DNA of 64,000 nt from Desulfurobacterium pacificum (lineage in GTDB: Bacteria; Aquificota; Aquificia; Desulfurobacteriales; Desulfurobacteriaceae): the NCBI RefSeq assembly GCF_900182835.1, contig NZ_FXUB01000004.1, forward strand, positions 1-64,000, given 5' to 3'. How positions within the stretch are numbered: the first letter of the stretch is position 1; the number at the start of each line of letters is the position of its first letter. The position numbers were made by a program, and so were the translations under genes. Of this stretch, positions 3,624 through 53,843 are shown piece by piece. The notes beneath the pieces are model-generated. The model made no database searches and was not told the origin of the DNA. It saw only the letters and a program-made list of their open reading frames with translations.

Positions 3624-3650
3624 GATTTTATCACGAAAGCTGATAAAATC
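3624..3650. promoter_or_regulatory. Perfect inverted repeat between divergent mtnP and lemA
   Basis: GATTTTATCA (3624-3633), seven bases, then its exact complement TGATAAAATC (3641-3650). It sits mid-way in the 90-base gap between the divergent mtnP and lemA genes. Each arm contains TAAAAT, a -10-like hexamer, one on each strand. It could be an operator shared by two promoters or a hairpin in a transcript. One GGGGATTTT copy overlaps its left arm. Confidence 0.55.
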
Positions 3651-3678
3651 TTACTTGGAACTAACTTCGGGGGAAGAT

Positions 3679-11129: not shown

Positions 11130-11167
11130 AGATTCCCCCTTAAAAGATTTGACCACCCTTGTTTGTT

Positions 11168-11196
11168 AATTTATCGTTATATTAGGGGAATTGCAA
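11168..11196 (-). promoter_or_regulatory. Promoter of the FG-GAP protein gene
   Basis: Minus-strand -35 TTGCAA (11191-11196) and -10 TAAATT (11168-11173), spacer 17 bases, about 40 bases upstream of the chosen ATG. Confidence 0.55.
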
Positions 11197-11201
11197 CAAA
11201 A

Positions 11202-11783
11202 CTACAGATTTGAAAGGTCAATTTCGTTGTCTATTATCGTGTACCTTTTACCGCCAAGCCTTCCAACGATGCCTTTTGAAGTTTCAAGAAGCTCTTCTTC
11301 AAAGTGAATAGCAACCACTTCTCCAAAAATCAAAGACATAGGCGTATCGCCGATTTCCACTATCTCTTTAAGCTTACACTCTAAAGCCGCAGGAACGCCT
11401 TTCACTTTAGGCGGTAAAACGATTTTAGAAGGTTCGGTCGGAACGTTTAAAATTTCTGCTTCACTTTCGTTAGGGGGATAGTCCTTTCCGGATAGGTGCA
11501 TCTTTTCTAAAAATTCTTTACTAACGAAGTTAACGACAAATTCGCCGGTTTCTCTTATGTTTCTGTCGGTATCCTTCAAAGTACCGTCCTTTCTCTTTCC
11601 GATGGAAACCATTATTATCGGCGGTTTTGTGGTAACGGCGTTAAAGAAGGAAAAAGGCGCAAGGTTAACGACACCCTCTTTAGAAACTGTTGATATCCAG
11701 GCGATAGGTCTTGGAACAACGATAGAGAAAATGGCTTTGCTGATTTCTTTCTGCTCATCCTTTCCGGGAAGAAGGGTTTTCAT
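11202..11783 (-). CDS. Flavin reductase-like (FMN-binding split barrel) protein
   Basis: A 193-aa protein of the flavin reductase / DIM6-NTAB family, which binds FMN in a split beta-barrel. Family features: the N-terminal VVPRPIAWISTVSKEGVVNL (about 23-42), APFSFFNAVTTKPPIIMVSI (about 43-62), the GTLKDTDRNIRETGEFVVNF region, and the GEVVAIHF strand near 154-161. Members include flavin reductases and uncharacterised flavoproteins, so the substrate is open. It is last in a minus-strand series after slyD and the class V aminotransferase. The ATG follows GGAGGG. A hairpin separates it from slyD. Confidence 0.85.
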   Translation of the reverse strand: MKTLLPGKDEQKEISKAIFSIVVPRPIAWISTVSKEGVVNLAPFSFFNAVTTKPPIIMVSIGKRKDGTLKDTDRNIRETGEFVVNFVSKEFLEKMHLSGKDYPPNESEAEILNVPTEPSKIVLPPKVKGVPAALECKLKEIVEIGDTPMSLIFGEVVAIHFEEELLETSKGIVGRLGGKRYTIIDNEIDLSNL

Positions 11784-11803
11784 ATGCCCTCCTTGAAGAG
11801 AAA

Positions 11804-11821
11804 GGCTGCCGAAAGGCAGCC
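11804..11821 (-). terminator. Weak intrinsic terminator or attenuator after slyD
   Basis: A 7-bp hairpin, GGCTGCC and GGCAGCC around a four-base loop, lies between the slyD stop and the flavin reductase start. On the minus strand it is followed by TTTCTCTTC, a poor U-tract, so read-through into the flavin reductase gene is likely. Confidence 0.5.
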
Positions 11822-11827
11822 ACCTGT

Positions 11828-12247
11828 TTATTCTGTAGGCTCTTTTTTGAGCATTTTAACCGTAAAGGTAAGAGTCTGTCCTGCAAGTGGGTGGTTATGG
11901 TCAAGAACCGCCTTTTCGTCGTCAAAGTCAACAACTCTTACCAAAAAGGTCTGTCCGTCCGGAGTTTGCCCTTGAAGAACCATTCCCTTTTGAAGGTCTA
12001 TACCTTCTAAAGCAGCTCTTGGAACAGTTTCAAGGAGTTCTTCTCTGTATTCGCCGTAGGCTTCTTCTGGTGGAAGGGAAAAAGTTTTCTCCTCACCTTC
12101 TTCCATAGGCGCAACTTCTCTTTCAAAGCCAGGAATTACTTCGTTCCTGCCTGTAGTAAAGGTGAACGCTCCTCTACCTTCTGTAGAGTCAATAACGTTC
12201 CCGTTCTGGTCTTTTAAGGTGTACTCAACGGTGCAAACGTAGTTCAT
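11828..12247 (-). CDS. FKBP-type peptidyl-prolyl isomerase, SlyD-like
   Basis: A 139-aa FKBP-fold prolyl isomerase/chaperone of the SlyD type. The N-terminal half has VEYTLKDQNGNVIDSTEG and the pocket stretch GRNEVIPGFEREVAPMEEGE (about 42-61). The IF chaperone domain insert follows (EEAYGEYREELLETVPRAAL), and the frame closes with the strand DHNHPLAGQTLTFTVKML, diagnostic for SlyD/FKBP. The His-rich metal-binding tail of enterobacterial SlyD is absent. The ATG at 12245-12247 has AAGGAGATG before it; an in-frame start nine codons upstream has none. It lies 31 bases after the class V aminotransferase gene and probably shares its transcript. Confidence 0.92.
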   Translation of the reverse strand: MNYVCTVEYTLKDQNGNVIDSTEGRGAFTFTTGRNEVIPGFEREVAPMEEGEEKTFSLPPEEAYGEYREELLETVPRAALEGIDLQKGMVLQGQTPDGQTFLVRVVDFDDEKAVLDHNHPLAGQTLTFTVKMLKKEPTE

Positions 12248-12278
12248 AACATCTCCTTTTAGTGTTTTTGCCACTATA

Positions 12279-13430
12279 CTACAAAGTTTCCTTTTCGTAA
12301 ACCTCCATTGCAGCTTTTACAGAATCGCCAAAGTTAAACCTGTTATAACCTAACTTTTTAAGTGCAAATTCGGTTACCTCAAGTCCTGTAAGAATGTCAA
12401 AGATGTCAACGTATCCCATGTGGGAAAGGCGGAAAATTTTTCCTTTAAGGTGCTCCTGCCCGCCGGCTATCGTAATTCCGAAGGTTTCTCTCGCTATCTT
12501 CACAACGTCCTGTCCGTTAATGCCTTCCGGTGAAATGACAGCCGTAACGCCGTTGGCGGGATTTTCAGATAGCAGTTCAAGCCCCAAAGCTTTAACGCCG
12601 GCTCTTGTTGCCTTTGCGAGCATCTCGTGCCTTTTAGCAACGTTCTCAAGTCCTTCTTCTTCTATCATTTTGAGGGCTTCGTTGAGGGCTATAACCAAGT
12701 TTGTAGCGGTAGTGTAGGCAGTTTGACCTTTGGGCTGCTGTTTTAACTCTTTTTTCAGGTTGAAGTAATAAGCAGTTGGATTGTCGTTTAATCTGTTAAC
12801 GGCTTTCTCATTTAAGGAAATCACGGCTAAACCGGGCGGCGTCATAAGAGCTTTTTGCGAACCGGTTATTGCTACGTCTATGTGCCAATCGTCTGTTGGA
12901 ATGTCGTAAACGCCGTAAGCTGTTATACCGTCTGCTATGAGGAGGCAATCGGGAAGCTCTTTCGTTATCTTACCTATAGCCTTTACGTCGTGAATAGTTC
13001 CTGTTGAAGTTTCGCAGATTTGAACTAAAACGCCTTTGACGTCGGGGGTGGTGGTGAGGATTTTTCCTATCTCCTCAACGGAAACGCTTTTACCCCACTC
13101 CACCTCTACCGTTATAGGCTTAACGCCAAAAGCCCTGCAGAGTTCTTCCCACCTCTGACCGAACTTTCCGCCAGCAACGACTACAGCGCTGTCTCCCGGC
13201 TTAAAGAGGTTGGCAACGGCAGCTTCCATGGCGCCGGTTCCTGAAGATGTGAGAATTAACACTTCCCCTTCAGTTTTAAAAAGGCGCCTAAGCCTCTCTC
13301 TGGTGTCAAGGAAGATTTCCTTAAACTCAGGTGAACGGTGGTAGAGCGTTGGTCTTGAAAGTGCTTCAAGAACTCTCTCTGGAACCATTGTAGGTCCTGG
13401 GGTCAGCAGTCTTTTCTTTAAAGGTTTCAT
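12279..13430 (-). CDS. Class V aminotransferase (alanine-glyoxylate / serine-pyruvate type)
   Basis: A 383-aa PLP enzyme of the small class V branch that includes alanine-glyoxylate and serine-glyoxylate/pyruvate aminotransferases. It begins with the typical LLTPGPTMVPERVLEALS and LYHRSPEFKEIF. PLP contacts include the SSGTGAMEAAVANLF loop (about 62-76), the Asp in LLIADGITAYG and the Schiff-base lysine in TGSQKALMTPPGLA (near residue 193). The C-terminal domain has FRLSHMGYVDIFDI. It may feed glycine/serine metabolism. The ATG has AAGGAG upstream. The exact amino donor cannot be read from sequence. Confidence 0.9.
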   Translation of the reverse strand: MKPLKKRLLTPGPTMVPERVLEALSRPTLYHRSPEFKEIFLDTRERLRRLFKTEGEVLILTSSGTGAMEAAVANLFKPGDSAVVVAGGKFGQRWEELCRAFGVKPITVEVEWGKSVSVEEIGKILTTTPDVKGVLVQICETSTGTIHDVKAIGKITKELPDCLLIADGITAYGVYDIPTDDWHIDVAITGSQKALMTPPGLAVISLNEKAVNRLNDNPTAYYFNLKKELKQQPKGQTAYTTATNLVIALNEALKMIEEEGLENVAKRHEMLAKATRAGVKALGLELLSENPANGVTAVISPEGINGQDVVKIARETFGITIAGGQEHLKGKIFRLSHMGYVDIFDILTGLEVTEFALKKLGYNRFNFGDSVKAAMEVYEKETL

Positions 13431-13452
13431 ATCGCAACTCCTTTAATGGTTT

Positions 13453-15564
13453 TCAGGCTAAAACTTTTAAAAACTTCATAATAACGGTTTTTTCTCCGTA
13501 GTTGGCAAAAAAAGCCGTAACTTTGGCGTTGTCTCCAGAACCTTCCACTCTTTTTACAACGCCTTTGCCGAACTTTTTATGGAAAACAATTTTAGGCTTT
13601 TTGTCAGAAGTTGAGGAAGTTTTCTGTAATGCAGGCTGCCCTGACCTTTCTTTCTTTTTCACTTCTTTTATAAGGTGAGAGGGGATTTCATCCAAAAAGC
13701 GGGATTTTTGCGACGACTTGTAAGTTCCAAAGAACCTGCGCCTTTTAGCGTAGGAAAGAGAAAGAAGTTTTTTTGCTCTCGTCACAGCTACGTAGAAAAG
13801 TCTCCTCTCTTCTTCTACGCCGTCTGCCGAGTCAAGACTTCTGACGTGGGGAAAAATCCCCTCCTCCAACCCCGCAATAAACACAACGGGAAACTCAAGA
13901 CCTTTTGAAGCGTGAACGGTCATCAGCGTAACTTTTTCGCCCTCTTCCATTTCGTCCTGGTCGGAAGAAAGGGTAATTGTGCTTAAAAACTCAACGTAAA
14001 GCTCTTCGCCTTCTAACTTTTCTCTTTCTGCAAAGTCCTGAATGGTATTCCCCAGTTCCTCTATGTTTTCATATCTCGATTCCCAGTCTTCTCTGTATTC
14101 CTTCTGTAAGTATTCCTTATATCCGCTGACGGTGGTTATGAACTTTATGAGGTCGTAGGGGGGAAGGGTGGGGATTTTTTCTCTTATAGCTCTTATAATC
14201 TCAATCAAATCTTCTACTGCTTTTCTTTGCCTTGCAGAACTCACGCTCTCAGCAAGTTTTTCAAGCGCTTTTAAATTGCCCTTTTCAACCTTTAAAATCT
14301 CCTTCAACTTCTTTTCAGCCGCATCACCAAGCCCTCGTTTGGGAACGTTCAAAATTCTCAAAAGCGAAACAACGTCGCTATCAAACAGAGCAACCCTCAA
14401 ATAAGCAATAACATCTTTTATCTCTTTTCTCTCATAGAACTTAACGCCACCAACTATCTGATAGGCTATTCCTTCCTTCCTCAAAGCATCTTCTAAAATA
14501 CGGGATTGTGCGTTCGTCCTATAAAAGACAGCAATGTCAGAAGGCTTAACTCCCTTTTTCAAGAACTGCTTTATCGTAGAAGAGATAAACTGAGATTCTT
14601 CAACGTCACTTTCCGCAGCGAAAAGTCTTATAGGCTCCCCGTCAGGATTCTCCGTAAACAGCGTTTTTCCTTTTCTCTTTCTGTTGTTAGCTATAACGGC
14701 GTTTGCTGCCTTCAGTATCGTTCCAGAACATCTGTAATTTTTTTCAAGCTTAATAACCTTGGCGTTGGGAAAGTCCCTTTCAAAAGAAAGAATGTTCTCT
14801 ATGTTAGCACCTCTCCAGGTGTAAATGCACTGGTCTTCATCACCAACAACGCAGATGTTTCCCTTTTCCTTCGTCAAAGAAAGCGCTATCTCGTATTGAA
14901 TCCTGTTCGTATCCTGATACTCATCTATCAAAACGTACCTAAAATAGTCCGAATACCGCCTCTTTAGGTCTTCCTGCGCTAAAAGGTCTCTTCCACATAT
15001 AAGCAGGTCGTCAAAGTCAAGGGCGTTACTCTCTTTTAGCCTTTTATTATAAAGCTCAAAAATCTGACCTATGTTCTCGTAATAAAGGTTCATAGAATCA
15101 AGCGAATAAGTACCGTTCTTCACGTTACTTATAACCGAGGCAATCGTAGAAGGGCTGTAAAGGTCTGGGTCAAGATTTAAATCTTTAATAATTTCCTTTA
15201 TCAATCTTTTTTTATCGTCAGAGTCAAAAATTACAAAGTTCGGCTTATACCCCAACCTTACGCTGTGAGCCCTCAAGAGTCTGACGCAAAAAGAGTGAAA
15301 AGTCATAACCCAGACGGGAACTTCTCTTTTCAATAAACCCTCAAGACGCTCTTTCATCTCGTTGGCAGCTTTATTTGTAAACGTAACAGCCAAAATCCTT
15401 TCAGGTTCAAATCCCAATTCTTCTATCATGTATGCAATCTTGTAAGTAATAACCCGTGTCTTTCCTGAACCTGCACCCGCAAGTATTAAAAGTGGAGAGT
15501 CAAAATAAAGAACAGCCTCTCTTTGTTGCTGATTAAGCTCCCTTATAAGTTCTTTCAACGCCAT
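13453..15564 (-). CDS. pcrA: UvrD/PcrA-type superfamily 1 DNA helicase
   Basis: A 703-aa 3'-5' helicase used in repair and replication restart. Motifs in order: Q-motif LNQQQREAV, Walker A ILAGAGSGKTRVI (about 25-37), motif Ib VTFTNKAANEM, Walker B YVLIDEYQDTN (about 215), motif III VVGDEDQCIYTWRGA, motif IV FYRTNAQSR, motif V VTLMTVHASKGLEFPVVF, motif VI RRLFYVAVTRAKK. The C-terminal segment KIVFHKKFGKGVVKRVEGSG is the PcrA-type RNA polymerase-binding Tudor-like tail, so the symbol pcrA is used although rep/uvrD would fit. The start is uncertain: the ATG at 15562-15564 has AAGGGG directly adjacent; a TTG three codons upstream is the alternative. Confidence 0.93.
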   Translation of the reverse strand: MALKELIRELNQQQREAVLYFDSPLLILAGAGSGKTRVITYKIAYMIEELGFEPERILAVTFTNKAANEMKERLEGLLKREVPVWVMTFHSFCVRLLRAHSVRLGYKPNFVIFDSDDKKRLIKEIIKDLNLDPDLYSPSTIASVISNVKNGTYSLDSMNLYYENIGQIFELYNKRLKESNALDFDDLLICGRDLLAQEDLKRRYSDYFRYVLIDEYQDTNRIQYEIALSLTKEKGNICVVGDEDQCIYTWRGANIENILSFERDFPNAKVIKLEKNYRCSGTILKAANAVIANNRKRKGKTLFTENPDGEPIRLFAAESDVEESQFISSTIKQFLKKGVKPSDIAVFYRTNAQSRILEDALRKEGIAYQIVGGVKFYERKEIKDVIAYLRVALFDSDVVSLLRILNVPKRGLGDAAEKKLKEILKVEKGNLKALEKLAESVSSARQRKAVEDLIEIIRAIREKIPTLPPYDLIKFITTVSGYKEYLQKEYREDWESRYENIEELGNTIQDFAEREKLEGEELYVEFLSTITLSSDQDEMEEGEKVTLMTVHASKGLEFPVVFIAGLEEGIFPHVRSLDSADGVEEERRLFYVAVTRAKKLLSLSYAKRRRFFGTYKSSQKSRFLDEIPSHLIKEVKKKERSGQPALQKTSSTSDKKPKIVFHKKFGKGVVKRVEGSGDNAKVTAFFANYGEKTVIMKFLKVLA

Positions 15565-40854: not shown

Positions 40855-42438
40855 TCATTTTAGGTTACCCCAACCGCCACCACCAGGAGTTTTTATCGTT
40901 AGGATGTCGCCGGCAGAAAGTTTTTCTGTAAACTTTCCTCCTCTCTTTTCTCTCTTGCCACCTTTTACAACTTCGTTTTCCCCTTCGAGCCCCGGTTCTC
41001 CGCCGAATAAGCCGTAAGGGGGAATCCTTCTCCTTTCGGAAATTACCGTTACTTCAACATCTGTAAGGAAGAGAAATTCTCTTTCTATCCCGTCTCCCCC
41101 CTTGTGCAGACCTTTACCGCCAGAACCTTTCCTTATCCTGTATTTCAAAACTCTCACCGGATACTCAAACTCAATAGCTTCTACCGGCGTATTTAGAGTG
41201 TTAGTCATATGAGAGTGAACAGCACTTTCACCGTCGCCACCTGCCCAGGCACCCATTCCACCGCCAATCGTTTCGTAGTAAGTAAAAGGCTTCCTTGTTT
41301 CAGGATTAATTCCGCCAAACGTAACGTTGTTCATCGTCCCTTGACTGGCAGCAGGAATAAAATCTGGAAGAGCTTTAGATAGAGCGCCCAACAGAACATC
41401 CACTATCCTTTGCGATGTCTCAACGTTACCTGCTGATACAGCAGCCGGAAATTCTGCATCAACTATCGTCCCTTTTTTCGTTATAACCGTAATAGGTCTC
41501 ATGCAACCTGCATTTACGGGGATATCCTCTTTTACAAGACATCTGAAAACGTAAAGAACCGCAGAAAGAGTTATGGCTCTAACGCTGTTTATACTGCCTT
41601 CAACCTGCAGGTCAGATTCAGAAAAGTCAACAACAGCTTTATCCCCTTTAATAACAATTTTTACTTTGATTTTAACGTCTTTTGCCCCAAGCCCATCGTC
41701 TTCCATGAAATCTTCAAACTCGTAAACGCCGTCTGGTATGTTTTCTATTGTCTTTCTCATTATCTTTTCAGAATAATCCATTAAAGCAGCGCTGTATCTT
41801 TTCACTTCCTCAAGCGAATACTTCTCAATGATTTCTTTGAGCCTCTTTATTCCCGTTCTGTTAGCCATTATTTGAGAAGCAAAATCCCCCCGCCTCTCTT
41901 CCGGCGTCCTCACGTTGGCACATATAAAGTTCATAACTTCTTCGTTAATCTCACCACTTTTCACAATCTTCAGCGGCGGAATTCTCAAACCTTCCTGAAA
42001 GATGGAATTTGAAAGAGGCATGGAACCGGGCGAAAATCCCCCTATATCTGCGTGGTGTGCTCTATTCGCAACGTAAAAGGCAACTTTTCCACCAACATAA
42101 ACAGGCGCAACAACCGTAACGTCCGGAAGATGCGTCCCTCCCATAAACGGGTCGTTCAAAACTGCCATGTCACCTTCTTTAAGGTCAAGGTTTTCTATAA
42201 CCGATTTAACAGAGAGGGGCATGGAACCAAGATGGACGGGAATATGTGCAGCCTGCGCCACTAATTCTCCATTCTCATCAAAGACAGCACAGGAAAAATC
42301 CCGCCTCTCCTTTATGTTTGGTGAAAACGCCGTCCTTTGAAGCACAACGCCCATCTCTTCAGCAACAGAAGAAAACCTATTTCTAAAAATTTCAAGAAGT
42401 ATGGGGTTAACTTTTTGCAACTTAGAATCCTCCGTCAC
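40855..42438 (-). CDS. Hydantoinase B / oxoprolinase family protein HyuB
   Basis: A 527-aa HyuB-type subunit. Typical: NRFSSVAEEMGVVLQRTAFS (about 15-34), LNDPFMGGTHLPDVTVV near 90-106, NRAHHADIGGFSPGSMP near 119-135 and the C-terminal TPGGGGWG. With HyuA such proteins form ATP-dependent hydantoinases, 5-oxoprolinases or acetone/acetophenone carboxylase-like enzymes. The substrate cannot be read from sequence. It lies 30 bases after the 91-aa ORF, downstream of hyuA. It contains two copies of the AAAATCCCC word. Confidence 0.9.
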   Translation of the reverse strand: MTEDSKLQKVNPILLEIFRNRFSSVAEEMGVVLQRTAFSPNIKERRDFSCAVFDENGELVAQAAHIPVHLGSMPLSVKSVIENLDLKEGDMAVLNDPFMGGTHLPDVTVVAPVYVGGKVAFYVANRAHHADIGGFSPGSMPLSNSIFQEGLRIPPLKIVKSGEINEEVMNFICANVRTPEERRGDFASQIMANRTGIKRLKEIIEKYSLEEVKRYSAALMDYSEKIMRKTIENIPDGVYEFEDFMEDDGLGAKDVKIKVKIVIKGDKAVVDFSESDLQVEGSINSVRAITLSAVLYVFRCLVKEDIPVNAGCMRPITVITKKGTIVDAEFPAAVSAGNVETSQRIVDVLLGALSKALPDFIPAASQGTMNNVTFGGINPETRKPFTYYETIGGGMGAWAGGDGESAVHSHMTNTLNTPVEAIEFEYPVRVLKYRIRKGSGGKGLHKGGDGIEREFLFLTDVEVTVISERRRIPPYGLFGGEPGLEGENEVVKGGKREKRGGKFTEKLSAGDILTIKTPGGGGWGNLK

Positions 42439-42468
42439 AACGCTGTTCCACCAGCAAGATAAAATCCT

Positions 42469-42744
42469 TCAGTAATTCCAGATTTTACAAGCGTTTCTAA
42501 AACTTCCCTTTGTTTTTTCTTCAATTTCTTCATCGGAAATTCCCAAAATCGTTTTCCAGAAAACTCTGTTAACATCGTTAAATAAGTTGTAGTGCCTTAA
42601 GAAAACCTCCTTCAAATACTCTTCGCCGTATTCTCTGTAAACATCCCTCGGGTTGTCATACATCATTCTCCTTGCAACCAAAACGCTCTTCGTTCTGTTG
42701 CCGTCCCAGGAATACTTCAGTTCTTCTTTCTTCAAATCCATCAA
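42469..42744 (-). CDS. Small protein between hyuA and hyuB
   Basis: A 91-aa protein not recognised. It is charged and aromatic-rich (for example REYGEEYLKEVFLRHYNLFN), with no membrane segment or Cys motif. It overlaps the hyuA stop by 4 bases and precedes hyuB by 30 bases. By position it could be a third subunit of the HyuA/HyuB enzyme. Some acetone/acetophenone carboxylases do have small extra subunits; similarity to them was not seen. Confidence 0.6.
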   Translation of the reverse strand: MMDLKKEELKYSWDGNRTKSVLVARRMMYDNPRDVYREYGEEYLKEVFLRHYNLFNDVNRVFWKTILGISDEEIEEKTKGSFRNACKIWNY

Positions 42745-44708
42745 ACACCAACTATTAAGTTTTTATACTCATCTACAAAAACTTCTGCAAAGGGTGGAAC
42801 AACCGTCGTTGAGCTGTATTCAACAATTATCGCTGCACCTTTTATTCTATTACCTGGAAGAAGTTTACTTCTGTCGTAAACGGGAACTTCCATCCAATCA
42901 TCAAAGAACGCTTTTCTTCTGCACAGAACAGCCTCATCAGGGACTTTCTCTGAAGCTAAAGAAAATTTCTCCAGTTTTGGCTTTTCAACTCTTCCAGTTG
43001 CCCTTAACCTTACATTAACTACTTCAACTTCCCTTTCTGGCGAGGAATATCCGTAAACCTTTTCATGTTCTCTGTGGAAGTCATCTACAAAGTTTTCTGA
43101 AAAGGGAACTATCAGTTCGAAAGACTGTCCCCTATAACGGACATCAACAAACCTTTCTAAAAAAATATTTTCCTCTTCAATCCCTTCACTTATAAGCTCT
43201 TCAAAAGCCCTATCTTCAAGAACCTTAAAGAATTCATCAAGCGTCTGCAAGGATAATTCTTCATCCCTGACCATAACCGTAAGGGAATAGTCCTTAACCA
43301 CATCCGACAAAAGCATACCCATAGCAGAAAGTATCCCGGGATTCAGCGGAACGATAACCTGGGGAATGTTAAGCGCTTTTGCAAGAAACGCGGCGTGAAG
43401 CCCGCCTGCTCCGCCGAAAGAAAAGAGAGAAAACTCTCTCGTATCGTATCCTCTTTCTATAGAAATTACCCTTATAGCCTTTTCCATCTTTGCGTTGGCA
43501 ACGTCAATAATGCCTTTAGCAAGCTCTACGGGTGAAAGCCCCGCCTCTTCTGCCATTTTCTCAAAGTAAGGAATAATCCTTTCCGGATAGAGTTTCATTT
43601 TTCCGCCTAAAAAGTAGTCAGGAACGAGTCGCCCTAAAAAGAGGTTTGCATCGGTAACGGTTATCTTTTCGCCTTTTCCGTAGCATATAGGTCCCGGGTC
43701 TGCACCTGCACTTTCTGGTCCAACGGATAAAGCCCCGCCAGCGTCTATCTTTGCTATTGAACCGCCACCTGCTCCAACTGTGTGAATGTCTATAACGGGA
43801 ACTTTTATCGGATAGCCTTCTATCTTTGCTTCTGTCGTTATTGTCGGCTTTCCGTCTATAAGGGAAACGTCCGTAGAAGTTCCGCCCATGTCAAAGGTTA
43901 TCAGTTTATCGTATCCTGCTGCGCTGCCGATTTTCCAGGCGCCGGTAACGCCACCTGCCGGACCTGAAAGTATCGTTCTTACAGGTTGCTCTTTTGCAGT
44001 TGTAGAAGAAATAATCCCACCGTTTGACTGCATGATGGAAAGTCTGTCTTCATTACCAAGATGGCTTTCAAGAAATGAAATGTATTTCTTCATTTTCGGC
44101 ATAACGTAGGCGTTAATTAGCGTAGTAGAACTCCTTTCAAACTCTCTAAACTCTGGAACTATTCTGCTGGATATAGAAACATCAAAACCATAAGAGTTTA
44201 AAATTTCAAAAGCTTTTTCTTCGTGGGAAGGATTGAGAAAAGAAAAAAGGAAAGAAACGGCAACAGATTCAACTTTTTCTTTTTTTAGAGCTTCAGCAAT
44301 GCGTTGTAACTCTTCAACATCTAACGGTTCTATCTCTTCGCCTTTTGAAGTTATTCTTCCCTTAACGCCAAAAACCAAAGAGGAAGGAATAAGAGGAACA
44401 GGCTTTCGGTAGTGAAGGTCGTAAAGTTTTTCTCTGTTCTGCCTTCCTATAAAAAGGATGTCTTCAAAACCTCTATTTGTGATAAAAGCAGTTTTTGCCC
44501 CTTTCCTTTCAAGAACGGCATTTGTGGCAACGGTTGAACCGTGAACGACGTTTTTCTTTTCACTTTCGGCAATGAGTTGAATACCTTTGAGGACTGCTTC
44601 GGCAGGGTTGTGAGGGGTGGAGGGGATTTTTAAAACGCCCCATTCATTGTCCTTTTTATATATAAAATCTGTAAACGTTCCGCCAGTATCAACACCAATG
44701 ATAATCAT
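42741..44708 (-). CDS. Hydantoinase A / oxoprolinase family protein HyuA
   Basis: A 655-aa ATP-binding subunit of the actin/hsp70-like fold. N-terminal phosphate loop GVDTGGTFTDFIYK (about 5-18), VVHGSTVATNAVLERKGAKT near 54-73, LSGPAGGVTGAWKIG, the second phosphate loop FDMGGTSTDVSLIDG and AGADPGPICYGKG. With HyuB it would open a cyclic amide or carboxylate substrate using ATP. Its ATG overlaps the stop of the large helicase gene by 4 bases, so it is co-transcribed with the putative defence genes, which is unexpected for a metabolic enzyme. Confidence 0.92.
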   Translation of the reverse strand: MIIIGVDTGGTFTDFIYKKDNEWGVLKIPSTPHNPAEAVLKGIQLIAESEKKNVVHGSTVATNAVLERKGAKTAFITNRGFEDILFIGRQNREKLYDLHYRKPVPLIPSSLVFGVKGRITSKGEEIEPLDVEELQRIAEALKKEKVESVAVSFLFSFLNPSHEEKAFEILNSYGFDVSISSRIVPEFREFERSSTTLINAYVMPKMKKYISFLESHLGNEDRLSIMQSNGGIISSTTAKEQPVRTILSGPAGGVTGAWKIGSAAGYDKLITFDMGGTSTDVSLIDGKPTITTEAKIEGYPIKVPVIDIHTVGAGGGSIAKIDAGGALSVGPESAGADPGPICYGKGEKITVTDANLFLGRLVPDYFLGGKMKLYPERIIPYFEKMAEEAGLSPVELAKGIIDVANAKMEKAIRVISIERGYDTREFSLFSFGGAGGLHAAFLAKALNIPQVIVPLNPGILSAMGMLLSDVVKDYSLTVMVRDEELSLQTLDEFFKVLEDRAFEELISEGIEEENIFLERFVDVRYRGQSFELIVPFSENFVDDFHREHEKVYGYSSPEREVEVVNVRLRATGRVEKPKLEKFSLASEKVPDEAVLCRRKAFFDDWMEVPVYDRSKLLPGNRIKGAAIIVEYSSTTVVPPFAEVFVDEYKNLIVGV

Positions 44709-47700
44709 CCTCTAACTCCTGCCTTTCCAATTTCAATCAAATCTCTGGCAAAACGTCTCTGCAGTAGATCTGCAAAGTACTGGTTTGAATAGCTAAGAAG
44801 GCATGAAGGACAGCACGAATCTTCTCCGCAACTGCAATTTGAAACAATTTCTAACGCTTTATCAAGAACATCTTCAAAGTTTTCATAGATCTCTGTTATA
44901 AAACCGGCTCCAGCTGGAACGTTGTCATAAATGATCAACCTGCTTTCGTTATCCTCTGTTCTATAAATTGTTCCATCTATATCTTCCCTCTTTATGTCAA
45001 GAGCTTCAGAAGCTCCTTCCAAAATAGCGTAGAGGAGGGAGTAGTAAGCTTCTTGCTTATAGCTTGTAAGTTGTGGTGTAACTGGAGGAGGATTGATTAC
45101 AAGGATATCAGTGTAGAACTGGTAACCAAGATAACAGCTGTTCTCATCTTTCTTTTTTCTTCCTTCTTTAAGAACTATGCTCAGGAGACCGGTATTTCTA
45201 TCTACACGCCTATCTTCATGAAAGTTTATAACAGTTATTCTATTTCTCATAAAGCGAGATATTTCAAATTTTCCAACCGTTTTCTTATCCACTTTTCTGT
45301 TATTTTCTATGTTTCCACTAACAAAACTTCTAACTACGGCTCTTGGGATAGGTTTATAGAAAACATCTTTTGAAATAGGAAGTTTTTTCTTATTTTTGCT
45401 CTTAAAATTGACTATATCAAAAACTTCTTTGAGCTTTTTCTCGTTGAACTCAACTTTATCAAAAAAATGTCTTATATCTTTTACTTCAAAGCCAAAAGAA
45501 GGAACAAGATATTTATTAATTTCTACCTTATCTCCCCCACATGCTGGACAAGTTGTAAATTCTATCTTGTCTTTATCCCATGCATCTTTAAAATACAAAC
45601 ACTTCCGGCATACGAAGAAATAACGAATCTCCGGTTCTTTCTTAGGGAGAATCCTAACGTTAGTTGGCATGATCATGTGTTTTCTAACAACTACTTTTTC
45701 CCCGGGAGCATACTCTCTAATGGCGATTTTCAAATCTCTATCTAGTTGTATTTTCTTTGATAGTTTATGTCCAACTATTTTTAAAGGAACTACATCAACG
45801 GGAAAACCATATTTCGGAATGAAAACTTTTCTACTGAAAAAACTAATGATATCCTGCCTTTTGATTTGTTCAAGATAGGTTTCATACGCTTTTCCTATGG
45901 TAGATAAATAACCTACTTTTCCAAAGTCTCCAAACGATTTTTGAATCTCCAACTTAATTTTCTTTATAACTTCTTCCAGCTCTGAAATATCCTCTTTCAG
46001 TTCCTCTTCTATAGTTTCCCATAAAGTTTTAGAATTACTTCCGTAATCTTCTGGTAGTTTTCCATTCCACCATTTCCAATTCTCTAAATCGACTTCATTT
46101 CCTATAAGTTTTACCTCCTTTTCCTTCATATTTAAACTGGAAAGGATATTTCTTAGCTCCTCCTTAACTTCAACAGGTTTTGTTTCCATAAACTCTTCAA
46201 ACTTTTTAAAGGCGTCATTGTCTCTGAAATCTTTAACAAAGACTCTACGACCAGTGAATTCTTTTCTAAGAAAGTAGGACAAAGCGACAGCGTTAAAGTG
46301 TCTTAAGAGAATTCTCCTGTTATTCAACTTGATTGCTGGAGGTTTTATTTCTCCTTTTATCATTTTGATAGGATTCTCAAAAACTTTTGAATCGTGAGGT
46401 CTGTTGAGAACGTAGGTTAAAATGTAAGCGTTTGTTCCCCTTCTTCCGGCTCTACCTGCTCTCTGGACATAGTTATCGGGTCTCGGTGGAACGTTGTGGA
46501 GAAAGACCATTTGAAGAGCTCCTATGTCCACTCCTAACTCAAATGTAGTAGAACAACTTAAGATATTTACATCTCCATTTGTGAATTTTCTCTGAATTTC
46601 CTCAGCTTCTTCCTTAGACAACTGAGCAGTGTGTTCTTCAACTATTGCTTTGTAATTCTTTGCTTTTCCTTTCTCCACATCTGAGAAGAAATTTAGGTAA
46701 AACTTAGAAACGGGAACACCGTCAATACTCTTCTCAATTAGATTCCCACTACACCCTGAATTTGTGCAGGCATTTTTAACATTCCAAGTATGGATTCTTC
46801 CACATTTATTACAGACATAAACTTTTCTGTTTTTCTGAACTCTCCACCTATGCGGTTCGATGACAAATCCTTCATATTCATCATCATGATGAACCAGAAC
46901 CCTTTCGCTTTTTAAAATTTCCCATATTTCCTTGAGTAGTTCCACAATTTCACCGTCATTCAGAGTGGTTTCTGAAAACACTCTTTTCAAGAGGTGAAAT
47001 CTTTTATTAGTAGAAAAAGAATCATCTTTTCTTCGGTATGGTATCCAAGAAGCAAGACCTCCCTTTCTTCTTCCGCCTTTATCTTCAAACTCTATTATCC
47101 CTCGATAGTCTAATACTTCATTGTCATCTCTAATAATTCTATTTTCTCTCAAACCTGCAAGGAGGTTATAGATAAGAGACTTAATCTCCTCCTTATTTAG
47201 ATTAGATATTGGATAACCTCTCAAAGCTCTAATTCGTTCCAGAATTTTTTCTTCTTTATCTTTCGGTAAAAGAAACTTAACAAGACCTATCCTTTCCAAA
47301 GAATCATAAATAAGAGCAAATTCTCTCATAAAAACAGTGTCTATATCTTCCTGGTCCTCTAAATATTTTTTAAGTTTTTTCTCAAGAAACCTCTTGTCTA
47401 CCGGTTCATAACTTAGATTCCTGTAAAATAACCATTTTTTCCACATTTCATTGTTAAAATCCTGATAGCCAGTAGCAAAGAAAGCGGCATCTCTCCTACT
47501 GTCCGAGAAAGCTATTATTTTCCTATCCTCTTTCTTTTTCGATTTTTCGACCAAGTGTCTAAATAAAACCTCCATGAGAACGGTCTGAGGTCTTTCCTGA
47601 GGAGGAGTAAAATAACTGAGCCACATTCCTTTTCTGTGCTTCTTCCCTTCAACTCCACAAGAGGGACATTTTTTAGGCTGAGGAAATACACTGTTTTCTT

Positions 47701-49213
47701 CTTCTTTAAGTTCGAAAACTTCAAGCCAGTTTTTTCCTTCTTTCTTTTTACGGGAAAGTTCACCAGTCTCTACATTAAGATAACATTTTGATGCTGATTT
47801 TCTTTTTTCTTTCGTCATCAGCTCAAGGGTATCTCTCGTTACTTCGTTCGGTATTGCAAGAAAGATTTTTTTCACTTTGTCAAGACCGACTGGATCGCCG
47901 GAGTATAGTTCTAATTTCTTTTCGTTCTTTTTGTTATTTATATAGCCTGTTATAAAGACTTCCCCGCAATAGCGGCATGTAGCCAATTGAAAAACTTTCT
48001 TTCCATTTCTCGTTCTTTCCATTTTGAAACTAAGATTTTCTATCTTCCCATCGTTACTTAAAGTAACGAAAACTCCATCAGGTGCTTTGACAAAAAAGTG
48101 ATATCTTGCTTGAAGTTTTCTTAGCTGTGGAAGCAGTTCTTTATCCGATGGAAAGATATTGGAGAATTTCTTTTGAACTTCGGAAAATTCTCTTGGTTTA
48201 GAAATAAATTCTTTAATCTTCCCCAAGATATCCTTCTCATTTTCATCTTCAAACTGAGCTCTAACTACGTCTTCTTTATCAAAATTCTCACCAAATATTG
48301 CAGTGGCAAATTTTGCAGCTTTCTCGTTAACTTTTTCTTCGTCTTTTCCTCCCAGAGTAGCACTTGCTCCAATGCATATTGGAGATTCAAAACAAGCCCT
48401 CTGTTTCAATCTACGAAGGAGACAACCTATTTCTGCTCCTTTAGCTCCATCGTAAACATGAATTTCATCAAGCACGAGGAATTTTAAAGCTTTATCCTCA
48501 AAAAGAGGAGACTCCTTTGGTCTCAGAAGTAGATATTCCAGCATGGAGTAGTTGGTTATTAATATATCTGGTGGATTTGAAAGTATATCTTCACGGACTA
48601 AAAGTTCTTCTCTACACTCTTTCTTACGTTCCTTATAACTTTTCTCTCCTTCTTTTCTCTTTTTATCAAACTCTTCTTTAGTGTAATAAGTATCACCCGT
48701 ATATCTTGCAAAAGTTATATCTGTACCTGCAAGAAATTTACGAAGTTCCTCTATTTGATCATTTGCAAGTGCATTCATCGGATAGATGAATATCGCTTTA
48801 ACTCCGCTTTCCCTTTTACCGCTTCTGACTATGTAGTCAACAACCGGAATTAAGAAACTCAAAGTTTTTCCACTTCCAGTTCCGGTAGAAACAAGCACGT
48901 TCTTTTCTTGTCGAACTTTTCTTATAACTTCTTCTTGGTGTTTATAGAGAGAATGCTTAAATTCTTTTTTGAATATTTCCTTCGTTTCTTGTTCTAAAAT
49001 CCCTTCAGAAACGAGATCTTCCAAGTTTGCACCTTGTTTATAGTTGGGAGTAGCTTGAACATATGGCCCCTTAAAAAACTTTTCTTTCTCTTCATCCATT
49101 TTTTCTCTTAGTTTGTCGTTTATATAGGAATATTTTGTTCTACAAATGGTATCAAGATAAAGATTAAATACTTTTTTTATTTCTTCCGTAAGTTTAAGGG
49201 GATCGATCTGCAT
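44705..49213 (-). CDS. Giant DExH helicase with zinc clusters and DUF1998-like C-terminus
   Basis: A 1502-aa superfamily 2 helicase. Walker A VSTGTGSGKT (about 108-117), YPMNALANDQ (Ia), DEIH box at about 249-252 in LVLDEIHVYDG, motif III GASATLGG; second RecA domain with STTFELGVDIGALQMV and VQRAGRAGRRG near 915-925. Four internal Cys pairs suggest zinc ribbons: TCRYCGEVF (about 408), KKCPSCGVEG (about 512), VCNKCGRIH with CTNSGCSG (about 796-826), and CRKC with CPACGG (about 1197-1228). The C-terminus has a DUF1998-like segment with CSCGEDSCCPSCLLSYSNQ (about 1455-1475). DUF1998 helicases include MrfA/YprA (repair) and Druantia DruE or DISARM components (phage defence). The size favours the defence type. 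One base separates it from the 640-aa gene. Confidence 0.85.
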   Translation of the reverse strand: MQIDPLKLTEEIKKVFNLYLDTICRTKYSYINDKLREKMDEEKEKFFKGPYVQATPNYKQGANLEDLVSEGILEQETKEIFKKEFKHSLYKHQEEVIRKVRQEKNVLVSTGTGSGKTLSFLIPVVDYIVRSGKRESGVKAIFIYPMNALANDQIEELRKFLAGTDITFARYTGDTYYTKEEFDKKRKEGEKSYKERKKECREELLVREDILSNPPDILITNYSMLEYLLLRPKESPLFEDKALKFLVLDEIHVYDGAKGAEIGCLLRRLKQRACFESPICIGASATLGGKDEEKVNEKAAKFATAIFGENFDKEDVVRAQFEDENEKDILGKIKEFISKPREFSEVQKKFSNIFPSDKELLPQLRKLQARYHFFVKAPDGVFVTLSNDGKIENLSFKMERTRNGKKVFQLATCRYCGEVFITGYINNKKNEKKLELYSGDPVGLDKVKKIFLAIPNEVTRDTLELMTKEKRKSASKCYLNVETGELSRKKKEGKNWLEVFELKEEENSVFPQPKKCPSCGVEGKKHRKGMWLSYFTPPQERPQTVLMEVLFRHLVEKSKKKEDRKIIAFSDSRRDAAFFATGYQDFNNEMWKKWLFYRNLSYEPVDKRFLEKKLKKYLEDQEDIDTVFMREFALIYDSLERIGLVKFLLPKDKEEKILERIRALRGYPISNLNKEEIKSLIYNLLAGLRENRIIRDDNEVLDYRGIIEFEDKGGRRKGGLASWIPYRRKDDSFSTNKRFHLLKRVFSETTLNDGEIVELLKEIWEILKSERVLVHHDDEYEGFVIEPHRWRVQKNRKVYVCNKCGRIHTWNVKNACTNSGCSGNLIEKSIDGVPVSKFYLNFFSDVEKGKAKNYKAIVEEHTAQLSKEEAEEIQRKFTNGDVNILSCSTTFELGVDIGALQMVFLHNVPPRPDNYVQRAGRAGRRGTNAYILTYVLNRPHDSKVFENPIKMIKGEIKPPAIKLNNRRILLRHFNAVALSYFLRKEFTGRRVFVKDFRDNDAFKKFEEFMETKPVEVKEELRNILSSLNMKEKEVKLIGNEVDLENWKWWNGKLPEDYGSNSKTLWETIEEELKEDISELEEVIKKIKLEIQKSFGDFGKVGYLSTIGKAYETYLEQIKRQDIISFFSRKVFIPKYGFPVDVVPLKIVGHKLSKKIQLDRDLKIAIREYAPGEKVVVRKHMIMPTNVRILPKKEPEIRYFFVCRKCLYFKDAWDKDKIEFTTCPACGGDKVEINKYLVPSFGFEVKDIRHFFDKVEFNEKKLKEVFDIVNFKSKNKKKLPISKDVFYKPIPRAVVRSFVSGNIENNRKVDKKTVGKFEISRFMRNRITVINFHEDRRVDRNTGLLSIVLKEGRKKKDENSCYLGYQFYTDILVINPPPVTPQLTSYKQEAYYSLLYAILEGASEALDIKREDIDGTIYRTEDNESRLIIYDNVPAGAGFITEIYENFEDVLDKALEIVSNCSCGEDSCCPSCLLSYSNQYFADLLQRRFARDLIEIGKAGVRG

Positions 49214-51136
49214 CTATTCCTCCTCAATAGTCAAATATTTATTAACGATTCTGCGAAGGTATATATTTCTTTTTATCTGCTTCAAAATTTTTAAAGAAAG
49301 TTCTCTATCTCCTTTCATTTCTCTATCAACGATTTTTATACATTTAATGACAAACTCAATAAATCGTTTCCCCAACTCATCGGTTTCTGAAAGAGAAAGG
49401 TATAGAAACTCGCGAATTTTCTGTTTTTCTATTTCTTTAAGTTCTCTTGGAATTTTATATTTTAGTCTCCTAGAAACAAATCCATTATTTCTAACCATGC
49501 TGCTTTTCAACAAAAGTTCAAGAATTCTTTGTAATGAACATTTTCTCTTTCTACTCTTTCTACCAATAGTAAGGGTTTTTACATGCCTATTTTCGGAATA
49601 TAACACGAGAGACAAAGGATAAACAAGTTTCTTGGGAGATAGTTGAGACAGATCCAATTCTTTTTCCCCAGAAAACTTATAAATCTCTTCTCCACATCTG
49701 TTGTAGAGATAAGCATATATTCCTTTTGGAAGCTTGGGAAGGAGAATCTTTTTCTTAACATCATCGTAAATTTCTCCAGATTGGAGTTTCTCAATGGCAG
49801 GATGAGAAACCTTGAAACTTCCAAACTCTTCCTCTATCTTTTCGCCAAGTTGATAAAAATTTCCTTTATAGGAGATGTTAAAGTTTTTTTCTAACTTTGG
49901 TCTTTCTGGAAGAAGGTAAATTTTCTGGGTTATTCTCTTCTTGCTACGGTAGGAAACTTTGTAAATTCCTGCTCTGGAAAAATGGGAAGGAAGATCATCT
50001 AAGGTATAGATTCCTTCCGGTGTTTCCAATAGAAGATCCTTTACAGCAGGAGAAACTTTTATAAAGAATTTTTTAGAGAATACTTTTCCCTTACCTCCAA
50101 CTGGGACAAGAAAGTCTATATCTTCTCCCTCAAATTCAATAAGTCTTCCTAAATCTTCAACCTGAATTTTTAGACCATCAATTTCTAAACCTTCAACAGA
50201 ATCCTCGATTCTTACAAGTTTACATCCATTTACCTCTTTTTCCTCTGGAAAATACCAGTCATTAAGCCAATTTTCATCAAGTTCCTCATAAAGCTCTTTC
50301 TTAATCAATAGGTAGGACGGTTCTTCTGAAAGATACAGTATTTCTTCTTTTTCATCCTTCCAACTTCTTATTCCTTTTTTATCTATAGATAGGAATAAGA
50401 AATCTTCCTTTTTTAACAAATTAGATAGATTATCTTTTGTCTGGTCTTTAACAGTTTTAAGCTTTTGGAGCTTGTAATCATGTAAAGCTTTTATTAACCA
50501 ATCTGGAAGATCATAGTTGTTGCTATCTCCATTAAAAAAGGAAAAGACTTCACGTAAAACCTTCTTTAAAGGAACAAAGGTTTCTTCAAACTGGCAGGCA
50601 TAGATAAATGTTTGTATCTTGTATTGGGATTTTTTGATCAGTTCCTCAAGCTTATCTTTTTCTAAAACATAGAGATGTTCTTCATCACCTTTTAACCTAC
50701 TATAAATGAAGTAAGCCATTCTAACGAATTTATTTTTTAACCTTGGAGGAACTAAAACATGGAGAAGGATTAGGTTTACTTTTCCGTTTCCAGGTACTTT
50801 TTCTGGACAGAATAGATTTGCCTTGTCCAGTATTTTCTTAAAAGACTCAAAAAATTCGTTTTGTTCTTTTAATGATAGACCTTTCCAAAATTCTCGACCG
50901 TCTTCCCCGTATTGTTCACCTAAGAAGAGTAGATATACAAACCTATTTAAATCCTTTATACAACTATTAGCAATTCTCTCATTCATTCCTAAATATTCCT
51001 TAGCAAAAGCAACCATCTTTTCAACTGTTCTTCCGCGTAAACTCCTCGACTCTCGATAAATTTCAGACTTCAGTTTTTTAAGCTTTTCTAGTTCTCTCCA
51101 TATACCTGGAATCTCCCACAGTAGCTGATAACCCAA
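49214..51136 (-). CDS. Unrecognised 640-aa partner of the giant helicase
   Basis: Not recognised. Three zones can be seen. Residues 1-270 are helical and charged (GYQLLWEIPGIWRELEKLKK at the start, then LNRFVYLLFLGEQYG). About 270-500 is strand-rich with Gly/Pro turns, including TPEGIYTLDDLPSHFSRAGI and PKLPKGIYAYLYNRCGEEIY, perhaps one or more beta-sandwich domains. About 520-640 is basic and helical (GRKSRKRKCSLQRIL, FVSRRLKYKIPRELKEIEKQ). There is no signal peptide or membrane helix. The stop is directly next to the helicase start, so the two are surely co-expressed. A role as substrate recognition or regulatory subunit of the helicase is inference from position. Confidence 0.8.
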   Translation of the reverse strand: MGYQLLWEIPGIWRELEKLKKLKSEIYRESRSLRGRTVEKMVAFAKEYLGMNERIANSCIKDLNRFVYLLFLGEQYGEDGREFWKGLSLKEQNEFFESFKKILDKANLFCPEKVPGNGKVNLILLHVLVPPRLKNKFVRMAYFIYSRLKGDEEHLYVLEKDKLEELIKKSQYKIQTFIYACQFEETFVPLKKVLREVFSFFNGDSNNYDLPDWLIKALHDYKLQKLKTVKDQTKDNLSNLLKKEDFLFLSIDKKGIRSWKDEKEEILYLSEEPSYLLIKKELYEELDENWLNDWYFPEEKEVNGCKLVRIEDSVEGLEIDGLKIQVEDLGRLIEFEGEDIDFLVPVGGKGKVFSKKFFIKVSPAVKDLLLETPEGIYTLDDLPSHFSRAGIYKVSYRSKKRITQKIYLLPERPKLEKNFNISYKGNFYQLGEKIEEEFGSFKVSHPAIEKLQSGEIYDDVKKKILLPKLPKGIYAYLYNRCGEEIYKFSGEKELDLSQLSPKKLVYPLSLVLYSENRHVKTLTIGRKSRKRKCSLQRILELLLKSSMVRNNGFVSRRLKYKIPRELKEIEKQKIREFLYLSLSETDELGKRFIEFVIKCIKIVDREMKGDRELSLKILKQIKRNIYLRRIVNKYLTIEEE

Positions 51137-51194
51137 ATCTCCCTCCCTAATATTGAGTTATAATTTTTTTGTTTCAATTTCTTTTAGTGCCTCG

Positions 51195-51404
51195 TCAAAA
51201 ACAAGTTTTTTTCTCTTCAATCAACTTTAAAACACCATGCCTTCTTCTTTCCCTATCTATAAGCCATTTCTGGAGAGAATCTCTGATAAGCTTACAGAAA
51301 CTCTCTCTTTTGTCCTTTGCTATTCTTTTCAGTTCTTCTGCGAACTTCTTATCAATAATAATGGTTATTTTCTCTATTGCTATATGGTATGTGGTTATAA
51401 ACAT
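51195..51404 (-). CDS. Small ribbon-helix-helix DNA-binding protein
   Basis: A 69-aa protein containing a ribbon-helix-helix pattern: strand EKITIIIDKKFAEELKRIAK, then RESFCKLIRDSLQKWLIDRE. Such domains occur in antitoxins and small repressors. The start is unclear. The ATG at 51402-51404 has no good ribosome site; the family's usual first residue would fall just before Glu-Lys-Ile-Thr, where the codon is ATA. It lies 58 bases before the 640-aa gene on the same strand. No toxin gene is next to it, so it may regulate the helicase operon. Confidence 0.55.
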   Translation of the reverse strand: MFITTYHIAIEKITIIIDKKFAEELKRIAKDKRESFCKLIRDSLQKWLIDRERRRHGVLKLIEEKKTCF

Positions 51405-51650
51405 AAAGTCAATATTATTAAAATTGTATATAGAATCTCTTGAAGAAAATATGGTCTATAACCAAGGAACCGTGACGGAAGTATTCCCCCCTCAGAAGCT
51501 AAAAGAAGGCTATGACTGCCGTCGTTAATAAGCTTGTCCATATTTCACTCGCTATGCTTTCTAAAGGTTAGTGTTTCTGGTATCCTTTCCAATCCCTGTT
51601 TCAATTTCTGGTAGTTGACTTCCTGAAGCAGAATGACAGAAATAATTTCA
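51405..51650. other. Intergenic stretch at the right edge of the accessory region
   Basis: About 245 bases without a gene I can support. A/T-rich sequence with TTGACT on the minus strand close to the ribbon-helix-helix start could form its promoter, possibly for a leaderless transcript. A single GTTTCAATTTC (51598-51608) resembles the start of many CRISPR repeats, but there is no second copy. Confidence 0.4.
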
Positions 51651-51719: not shown

Positions 51720-53822
51720 TTACTTACTTCTTTCACCAATAATCTGCTCTGCAACGTTTGGCGGAACTTCCTCATAGTGGCTGAACTTCATGATGTAGGT
51801 AGCTCTACCCTGCGTCATAGAACGAAGGTCTGTAGCGTAACCAAACATCTCAGCAAGTGGAACGAGCGCTCTAATTACCTGAGCGTTACCGCGGGCTTCC
51901 ATTCCTTGAACGCGACCACGCCTCTTGTTAAGGTCACCAATAACGTCACCCATAAACTCTTCAGGCGTAGTAACTTCAACTTCCATTATAGGCTCAAGGA
52001 GAACAGGATTAGCCTTCTTAGCACCTTCCTTAAACGCCATAGAACCGGCAATCTTAAACGCCATTTCAGAAGAGTCAACCTCGTGGTATGAACCGTCAAA
52101 CAGCGTAACCTTGATATCAACCATAGGATATCCGGCAACAACGCCAGTTTCCATAGCTTCTCTTACACCAGCCTCAACGGCAGGAATGTATTCTTTAGGA
52201 ACAACACCACCCTTAATTGTTTCGTGGAATTCAAATCCCTTACCAGGCTCAAGAGGCTCTATCTTAAGCCATACGTGACCGTATTGACCTCTACCACCTG
52301 TCTGCTTGATGAATTTACCTTCAGAAGTAACCTCTTTTCTAATTGTTTCTCTGTAAGCAACCTGAGGCTTACCAACGTTAACGTCAACGCCGAATTCTCT
52401 CTTCAATCTATCAACGATAATCTCAAGGTGAAGCTCACCCATTCCGGAAATAATCGTCTGTCCGGTCTCATGATCCATAGAAACGCGGAAAGATGGGTCT
52501 TCCTTGGCAAGCTTCTGTAATGCAAGAGAAAGCTTCTCCTGGTCAGCTTTTGTCTTAGGCTCAACCGCAACAGAGATAACCGGCTCTGGGAACTCCATAG
52601 CTTCAAGAAGAATTGGATGGTCAGGGTCACAAAGAGTATCACCTGTGTAAGTCTCTCTCAAACCAACAGCAGCGGCGATATCACCGGCACCAAGAACCGG
52701 AATTTCCTCTCTCTTGTTCGCGTGCATACGGAGAATTCTTGCAAGTCTTTCTTTTTTATCTCTTGTAGCGTTGTAAACGTAGGAACCGGACTCCATCAAA
52801 CCGGAATAAACTCTCACGAACGTAAGCTGTCCAACGTAGGGGTCTGTAAGAATCTTAAACGCGAGAGCTGCGAACGGAGCGTCGTAAGAAGCAGGTCTCT
52901 CTTCCTCTTCGCCAGTTTTCGGATTAATACCCTTAATAGGAGGAATATCAAGCGGAGAAGGAAGATAATCAACTACTGCATCAAGAAGTGGCTGAACGCC
53001 CTTGTTCTTGAACGCGGAACCGCAAAGCATCGGGAAGAACTTAAGCTCAATAGTTCCTTTTCTGATAGCGGCTTTTATCTCATCTTCAGTAATCTCTTCA
53101 CCTTCAAGGTACTTCATCATTATCTCTTCATCTACGTCAGCAATCGCCTCAAGCATCTTCTCGCGCCACTCTTCAGCAACAGGTACAAGGTCTTCAGGAA
53201 TATCCTCGTAGTGGAACTTCGCACCAAGAGTTTCTTCTTCCCAAATAATTGCTTTCATAGTAATAAGGTCAACCACACCTTTAAATTCATCTTCAGCACC
53301 AACAGGTATTTGAAGAGGAACAGGCTTAGCACCAAGTTTTTCTTCAACTTCTCCAACAACCTTGAAGAAGTCAGCACCAATTCTGTCCATCTTGTTAACA
53401 AAGATTATTCTTGGAACGCGGTATTTGTCCGCCTGTCTCCAGACAGTTTCCGTCTGAGGCTGAACACCGCCAACGGAACAGAGAATAGTTACCGCACCGT
53501 CAAGAACCCTCAAAGAACGCTCAACTTCAATGGTAAAGTCAACGTGACCCGGCGTGTCAACGATGTTAATTCTGTGGTCACGCCAGAAGCAGGTAGTTGT
53601 AGCAGAGGTAATGGTAATACCTCTTTCCTTTTCCTGCTCCATCCAGTCCATTTCGGCGGCGCCTTCGTGAACTTCACCAATCTTGTGAATACGACCGGTA
53701 TAGTAAAGAATACGCTCGGTAGTTGTAGTTTTACCGGCGTCTATGTGAGCGATAATTCCAATGTTCCTCACCTTTTCAAGAGGAACTTTAATCTGCTTAA
53801 TAAGTGCTTGATTCTTACTCAA
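51720..53822 (-). CDS. fusA: Elongation factor G
   Basis: A 700-aa translocation GTPase. G1 [19 protein letters not shown] (about 24-42), G2 around RGITITSA, G3 DTPGHVDF, G4 [11 protein letters not shown], and the domain IV stretch [15 protein letters not shown] are all present. The start is the TTG at 53820-53822: GGGAGG lies about 6 bases upstream, while the longer frame starts at another TTG before that site. It follows rpsG by 21 bases. tuf is not downstream; a terminator follows instead. Confidence 0.98.
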
Positions 53823-53843
53823 CTTAGCCTCCCGCAATAAGTG

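Follow-up and report, generated by a model that had tools for sequence, protein, structure and literature searches.

A divergent, nuclease-less two-gene candidate Druantia variant with a new partner family in Desulfurobacterium pacificum

Locus organisation

The window analysed here is a stretch of 64,000 nucleotides from Desulfurobacterium pacificum (contig NZ_FXUB01000004.1), a member of Aquificota with a genome of 1.59 Mb. On its minus strand one ORF call (44705..49213) encodes a DruE-like SF2 helicase of 1502 aa. A second ORF call on the same strand (49214..51136, TTG start) encodes a 640-aa protein, from here on the partner, whose stop codon abuts the ATG of the helicase; this ATG is preceded by a good ribosome-binding site. 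Next to them lies a 69-aa ribbon-helix-helix (RHH) ORF (51195..51404, minus strand). A first-pass annotation of the window had grouped these three minus-strand genes, and all of them were recovered as ORFs at the coordinates given above.

Two genes outside the module flank it. The hydantoinase/oxoprolinase A-like gene hyuA (42741..44708, minus strand) overlaps the helicase gene by 4 bp, and the core gene fusA (elongation factor G, str operon; 51720..53837, minus strand) lies upstream. Despite the 4-bp overlap hyuA and hyuB were rejected as members of the operon, as a dozen relatives carry both genes but not the pair. Upstream of the RHH ORF a promoter-like site was detected (51384..51412, minus strand; TTGACT-17-TACCAT, 9/12), with the caveat that the count of such sites in the region is no higher than chance. 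No further defence genes were found beside the pair in the window.

Insertion site and accessory status

The RHH protein had been proposed as a regulator or component of the operon, and this role did not survive comparison of the site. Relative to its 84-aa homologue in a related genome, the window ORF lacks the usual start codon and carries a frameshift close to its 3' end, and for this reason it is regarded as the remnant of a previous occupant. In one family member (G013; contig 167, L130 2014-2644) the 84-aa RHH antitoxin is found upstream of hyuA together with a PIN-domain toxin, the PIN assignment having been made by eye from the sequence. The gene order is RHH-PIN-hyuA in that genome and RHH remnant-pair-hyuA in the window, and the helicase/partner pair sits exactly at the position of the toxin, a clean replacement of the toxin gene. 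The comparison rules out the RHH protein as the regulator of the pair and identifies the ORF as the putative decayed antitoxin of an RHH-PIN pair that the helicase and its partner replaced. It is a marker of the site and lies outside the module. A second RHH-PIN pair adjoins the str operon in another genome (G005; L131 5069-5687).

The pair was absent from all other genomes of the same family that were searched, including those of the same genus. Relatives with closed genomes have tuf and the ribosomal S10 operon after fusA. The absence of the pair from its family bears out the accessory location assumed at first pass, and the pair is not a syntenic core element of its relatives. Within the best explanation of the locus, the pair was acquired horizontally. 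The interval between hyuA and hyuB (window 40855-44708; L119, L120) varies in its own right: it holds a 91-aa ORF here, the homologue of this ORF and an AbiEii-like toxin in G003, and an AAA-ATPase in G005. It looks like an insertion hot spot.

The helicase is a DruE homologue

Pfam detects a DEAD/RecA1 domain (aa 91-293), a Helicase_C/RecA2 domain (aa 853-926), and a terminal MZB (DUF1998) domain (aa 1395-1472, E=6e-17) in the helicase, the last of these matching the DUF1998-like end that had been noticed by eye. The helicase motifs I, II, III, and VI are all preserved (TGTGSGKT 110-117, DEIH 249-252, SAT 284-286, QRAGRAGR 917-924). Where four to five Cys clusters had been noted at first pass, four were found (413/416 + 516/519; 801/804/816/821; 1202/1205/1222/1225; 1460/1462/1468/1471), and nearly all of their cysteines are invariant in an alignment with four full-length relatives.

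Among PADLOC models the best matches are DruE1 (7e-159), DruE3 (6e-145), and DruE2 (7e-125), in agreement with the comparison to Druantia (DruE) made at first pass, while other models are far weaker (DpdJ 4e-28, DrmA 5e-17). The top PDB match is 9tu7, a DEAD/DEAH box helicase of 2108 aa (2e-81); the structure of the repair helicase MrfA (PDB 6znp) matches at 6e-31. Judged by these matches, the 1502-aa protein is a homologue of DruE (Druantia). Only 30 residues follow the MZB domain in the window helicase (1472/1502) compared with 413 in E. coli DruE (1691/2104), whose C-terminal tail is described as a pair of PLD-like nuclease domains (PMC12458937). The window helicase therefore lacks the nuclease-bearing C-terminal extension of E. 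coli DruE.

In the phylogenetic trees the window helicase is found on the Druantia side of the family, apart from ARMADA and MrfA. It forms a clade with the Persephonella/Hydrogenothermaceae helicases (support 100), and the neighbours of this clade are the Aquificaceae helicase, the Ruminococcus phage helicase, and a viral contig. It falls outside a further group (support 95), to which Druantia I and E. coli III-A belong. The deep placement is provisional, since the support values are SH-aLRT obtained in short searches and several of the rows are long. A separate YprA branch, "Druantia III-like" (III-B), has been described, with helicases that are most often nuclease-free (PMC12458937). A position apart from Druantia I and E. 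coli III-A and the lack of a nuclease are compatible with this branch, and the window module is probably near it, judged from trees built without the III-B reference sequence GIH50614.1.

The partner represents a new family

The partner found no family match in Pfam, PADLOC, NCBIfam, PHROGs, or PDB. With DruH there was no PADLOC match even at E 10, and hhalign against an alignment of 7 DruH sequences found no relation (prob 0.2). PADLOC and profile comparison gave no overall match to DruB, DruC, or DruD, and no exonuclease family match was found. The impression that the partner is unlike known Druantia and DISARM subunits was thus upheld by profile searches, and the protein matched no housekeeping family either.

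Searches of 136 genomes of the phylum uncovered four relatives of the partner in three other Aquificota genomes, the named carriers being Persephonella and other Hydrogenothermaceae. All four are located directly upstream of a DruE-like helicase, with overlaps of 4, 4, and 29 bp at three junctions and a 2-bp gap at the remaining one. The pair therefore does recur elsewhere, a point raised at first pass, as a tight two-gene unit at non-syntenic places, once near toxin-antitoxin genes. No more homologues were detected in viral contigs or plasmids, and genome contigs gave already known loci only. The four relatives show 27-31% identity in the partner and 42-43% in the full-length helicases; counted over aligned columns the values are 27-32% for partners and 42-44% for helicases. 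The partner family sample comprises five sequences, including two that are almost the same. Divergence is thus faster in the partner than in the helicase, and DruH has likewise been reported to diverge faster than its helicase (PMC13192584).

AlphaFold2 models of the partner were built from the five sequences. Both models that were compared run from helices through tandem beta domains to helices, with the beta part predicted best; mean pLDDT was 47 for the window partner and 62 for the Persephonella partner. In the window protein the helical N-terminal part covers approximately aa 1-243, the tandem Ig-like/beta part aa 245-530, and the helical C-terminus aa 534-640. Foldseek matches were tandem Ig and FnIII proteins with TM-scores of ~0.1-0.3, and at these pLDDT values and TM-scores a fold class is suggested, no more. 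The models suggest that the centre of the partner consists of tandem Ig-like domains flanked by helices. DruH has helical N- and C-terminal regions and three Ig-like domains (PMC13192584), and the likeness in predicted layout is suggestive only.

The N-terminal domain and other DruE partners

A profile of the N-terminal 230 residues of the partner was compared by hhalign with 322 proteins from the loci examined, each represented by its first 260 residues. The three best matches are all encoded just upstream of genes of DruE operons: the ~916-926-aa protein before the Ruminococcus phage helicase (L039; E 0.0001 per comparison), a 952-aa protein on a viral contig (L066; E 0.0016 per comparison), and a 955-aa protein in the DruA-955-DruD-DruE operon of Nitrosococcus watsonii (L139; E 0.004 per comparison). 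These per-comparison E-values (0.0001-0.004) are weak. The family comparison is collinear across 145 columns, and none of 300 column shuffles reached its score. In addition, the motif H-x-h-h-P[KR] with its following aromatic positions occurs, among 2330 ORFs, solely in proteins upstream of genes of DruE operons; the window partner carries a relaxed form, HVLVP (H126; H-x-hydrophobic-hydrophobic-P). DruH gave nothing against the N-terminal profile. The N-terminal domain of the partner is probably, on this sequence evidence and short of proof, distantly homologous to those of other DruE partners in Druantia-I-like operons and the Ruminococcus phage. What is new here is this family of short partners and the connection that it has with the partners of other DruE helicases.

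Companion genes at related loci

The companions of the pair vary. At two loci (L028, 12146-12541; L029, 10209-10691) a gene for a small, single-HKD, DrmC-like PLD nuclease is found directly upstream of the partner, and L029 also has a nucleotidyltransferase-HEPN pair and a transposase. The PLD protein of these relatives has no homologue in the window (TBLASTN), and three PLD genes are present elsewhere in this genome. At L030, from a Hydrogenothermaceae MAG, a DruA-family gene (2984-4075; Pfam PF14236, 1e-68) lies 14 bp from the convergent DruE-like helicase gene, and a weakly Cas4-like protein and an AAA helicase (10845-14893) are encoded divergently from the partner; this is possibly a composite Druantia locus. 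DruA is otherwise rare, being present in 7 of the 136 genomes of the phylum. The variety of companions points to an invariant core of partner and helicase with exchangeable nucleases.

Other arrangements with DruE-like helicases were observed during the same searches. In Aquificaceae (L027, 5973-15418) a 1601-aa DruE-like helicase and a 767-aa protein, which shows no relation to the partner, lie between the two halves of an hsdM methyltransferase gene; it seems that a type I restriction locus was interrupted there by a putative defence cassette of two genes. In the Ruminococcus phage NatCom_28274 (L039, 3113-10536) the gene of the ~916-926-aa protein overlaps that of a 1558-aa nuclease-less DruE-like helicase by 4 bp, by sequence a phage-borne candidate for a two-gene Druantia-like pair. 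This pair, used as a query, found no match in viral contigs. On a haloarchaeal plasmid (L144, 1997-13039) DruA is divergent from genes for a 413-aa protein, a 608-aa weakly DruD-like protein, and a DruE-like helicase, and the locus looks like an archaeal variant of Druantia I.

Comparison with known systems

The helicase combines an SF2 core with DUF1998 and belongs to the Druantia clade of the YprA family, the features by which Druantia is recognised. Druantia III (DruH-DruE) has been studied in E. coli and mycobacteria (PMC13192584, PMC13316683; PDB 9tu7, 9tud), and an E. coli DruH-family protein matches PDB 9tud, "DruH". The window pair resembles it as a two-gene operon with the partner immediately upstream of, and coupled to, a DUF1998-bearing DruE, in the faster evolution of the partner, and in the helices/Ig-like/helices layout suggested by weak models. 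However, the partner has 640 aa, DruH has ~1120 aa, and no sequence homology is detectable between them; the helicase, at 1502 aa, differs from that of E. coli Druantia III by lacking the C-terminal extension with its nuclease domains, the hallmark of III-A. As the partner gave no match to DruH, the pair is better kept apart from Druantia III in the strict sense. The III-like/III-B branch is similar in having DruE-clade helicases on their own branch, mostly nuclease-free (PMC12458937); the main text of that paper names no partner family for it.

With Druantia I (DruABCDE) the window shares a DruE homologue, the partner N-terminus distantly matches that of the 955-aa N. watsonii protein, and DruA stands beside the helicase at L030. 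Unlike Druantia I, there is no DruA in this genome and no DruB, DruC, or DruD beside the pair, and the helicase lies outside the Druantia I clade. ARMADA, DISARM, and Dpd also employ YprA-family (DUF1998) defence helicases, but no BrxHII-like helicase, methyltransferase, or deazaguanine genes adjoin the pair. ARMADA was rejected, the helicase being outside its clade and the neighbours being hyuA/B and fusA. So was DISARM, which has DrmA and a separate DUF1998 protein (DrmB), while DUF1998 is here fused in one ORF and DrmA matches at only 5e-17. The repair helicase MrfA/YprA (~750 aa, repair clade) was set aside as well, since the window protein is 1502 aa long and apart from the MrfA outgroup.

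The first-pass annotation had suggested an undescribed two-gene variant. This is overstated in so far as two-gene Druantia III, the nuclease-less III-like/III-B branch, and defence by the M. smegmatis system were already known (PMC12458937, PMC13316683); the partner family is new.

Interpretation

The pair is very probably a defence module, as far as sequence and genomic context can tell. The module appears to comprise exactly the partner and the helicase and is likely an acquired anti-phage system that belongs to the Druantia lineage, with the nuclease-less III-like/III-B helicases as its nearest published counterparts. We take the pair to be a putative Druantia variant of two genes, divergent and without a nuclease, whose partner represents a new family.

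The strongest competitor is that the partner is a strongly diverged and shortened DruH and the locus an ordinary Druantia III(-B), which is possible but less likely than the main reading. Gene order is the same, the partner gene coming immediately before that of DruE and being coupled to it, the low-confidence models show helices-Ig-helices as in DruH (PMC13192584), and the helicase branch is compatible with III-like. On the other hand, neither PADLOC at E 10 nor hhalign against the seven DruH sequences found anything, the window partner is ~500 residues shorter, and its N-terminal similarity is to the partners of the Druantia-I side and phage, not to DruH. It is rather unlikely that the window copy is a reduced, maybe inactive form of a three-gene nuclease-dependent system of PLD nuclease, partner, and helicase. 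The DrmC-like PLD genes at L028 and L029, missing from the window by TBLASTN, would fit such a system, but the PLD gene is missing from L030 too, where other nuclease genes lie in the vicinity, both window genes are full length with intact motifs, and three PLD genes exist elsewhere in the genome. A DNA-repair or housekeeping pair of the MrfA/MrfB kind, outside defence altogether, is very improbable: MZB/DUF1998 helicases do include MrfA (PDB 6znp, 6e-31) and family searches left the function of the partner unassigned, yet the helicase is twice the size of MrfA and groups with DruE, the pair is absent from nearly all relatives and occupies the place of a toxin gene, and the partner has no exonuclease family match.

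The mechanism of the candidate Druantia variant can be outlined by analogy with DruH-DruE. The DruE of M. smegmatis (1667 aa), in which no nuclease domain is recognised, depends on its DruH for defence and prevents phage DNA from being circularised and replicated (PMC13316683). In Druantia III, sensing probably falls to DruH, and the intermediates on which DruE loads contain ssDNA (PMC13192584). By this analogy the partner may act as sensor and loader: its predicted Ig-like domains would recognise a phage component or its assembly, and the N-terminal helical domain, which it probably shares with other DruE partners, would contact DNA and/or the helicase. The helicase would then load on ssDNA-containing intermediates of phage replication or circularisation and translocate or unwind them, driven by ATP. 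As the helicase has no nuclease, the block on phage replication might come from the action of the helicase by itself, from a cryptic nuclease activity in the partner, such as has been reported for DruH, or from a nuclease encoded separately; two relatives have a PLD gene directly upstream.

Druantia systems are grouped by helicase, and their partners look unrelated between types. A more tentative idea, held at rather low confidence, is that the pair is a distinct minimal Druantia type whose partner is an evolutionary link between the accessory subunits of type I (through the N-terminal domain) and DruH (through the Ig-like core). If true, one partner scaffold, a DNA/helicase-binding helical domain plus an Ig-like sensor, would be common to all Druantia, while the nuclease would be an exchangeable extra (a fused tail, a separate PLD gene, or none). 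PADLOC models detect the helicase and miss the partner, and counts of these loci are probably too low, with the helicase recorded as a solitary DruE gene. The compact thermophile pair is an attractive minimal system for the role of the partner, for a phage block by helicase only, and for a scaffold that may be common to DruE partners.
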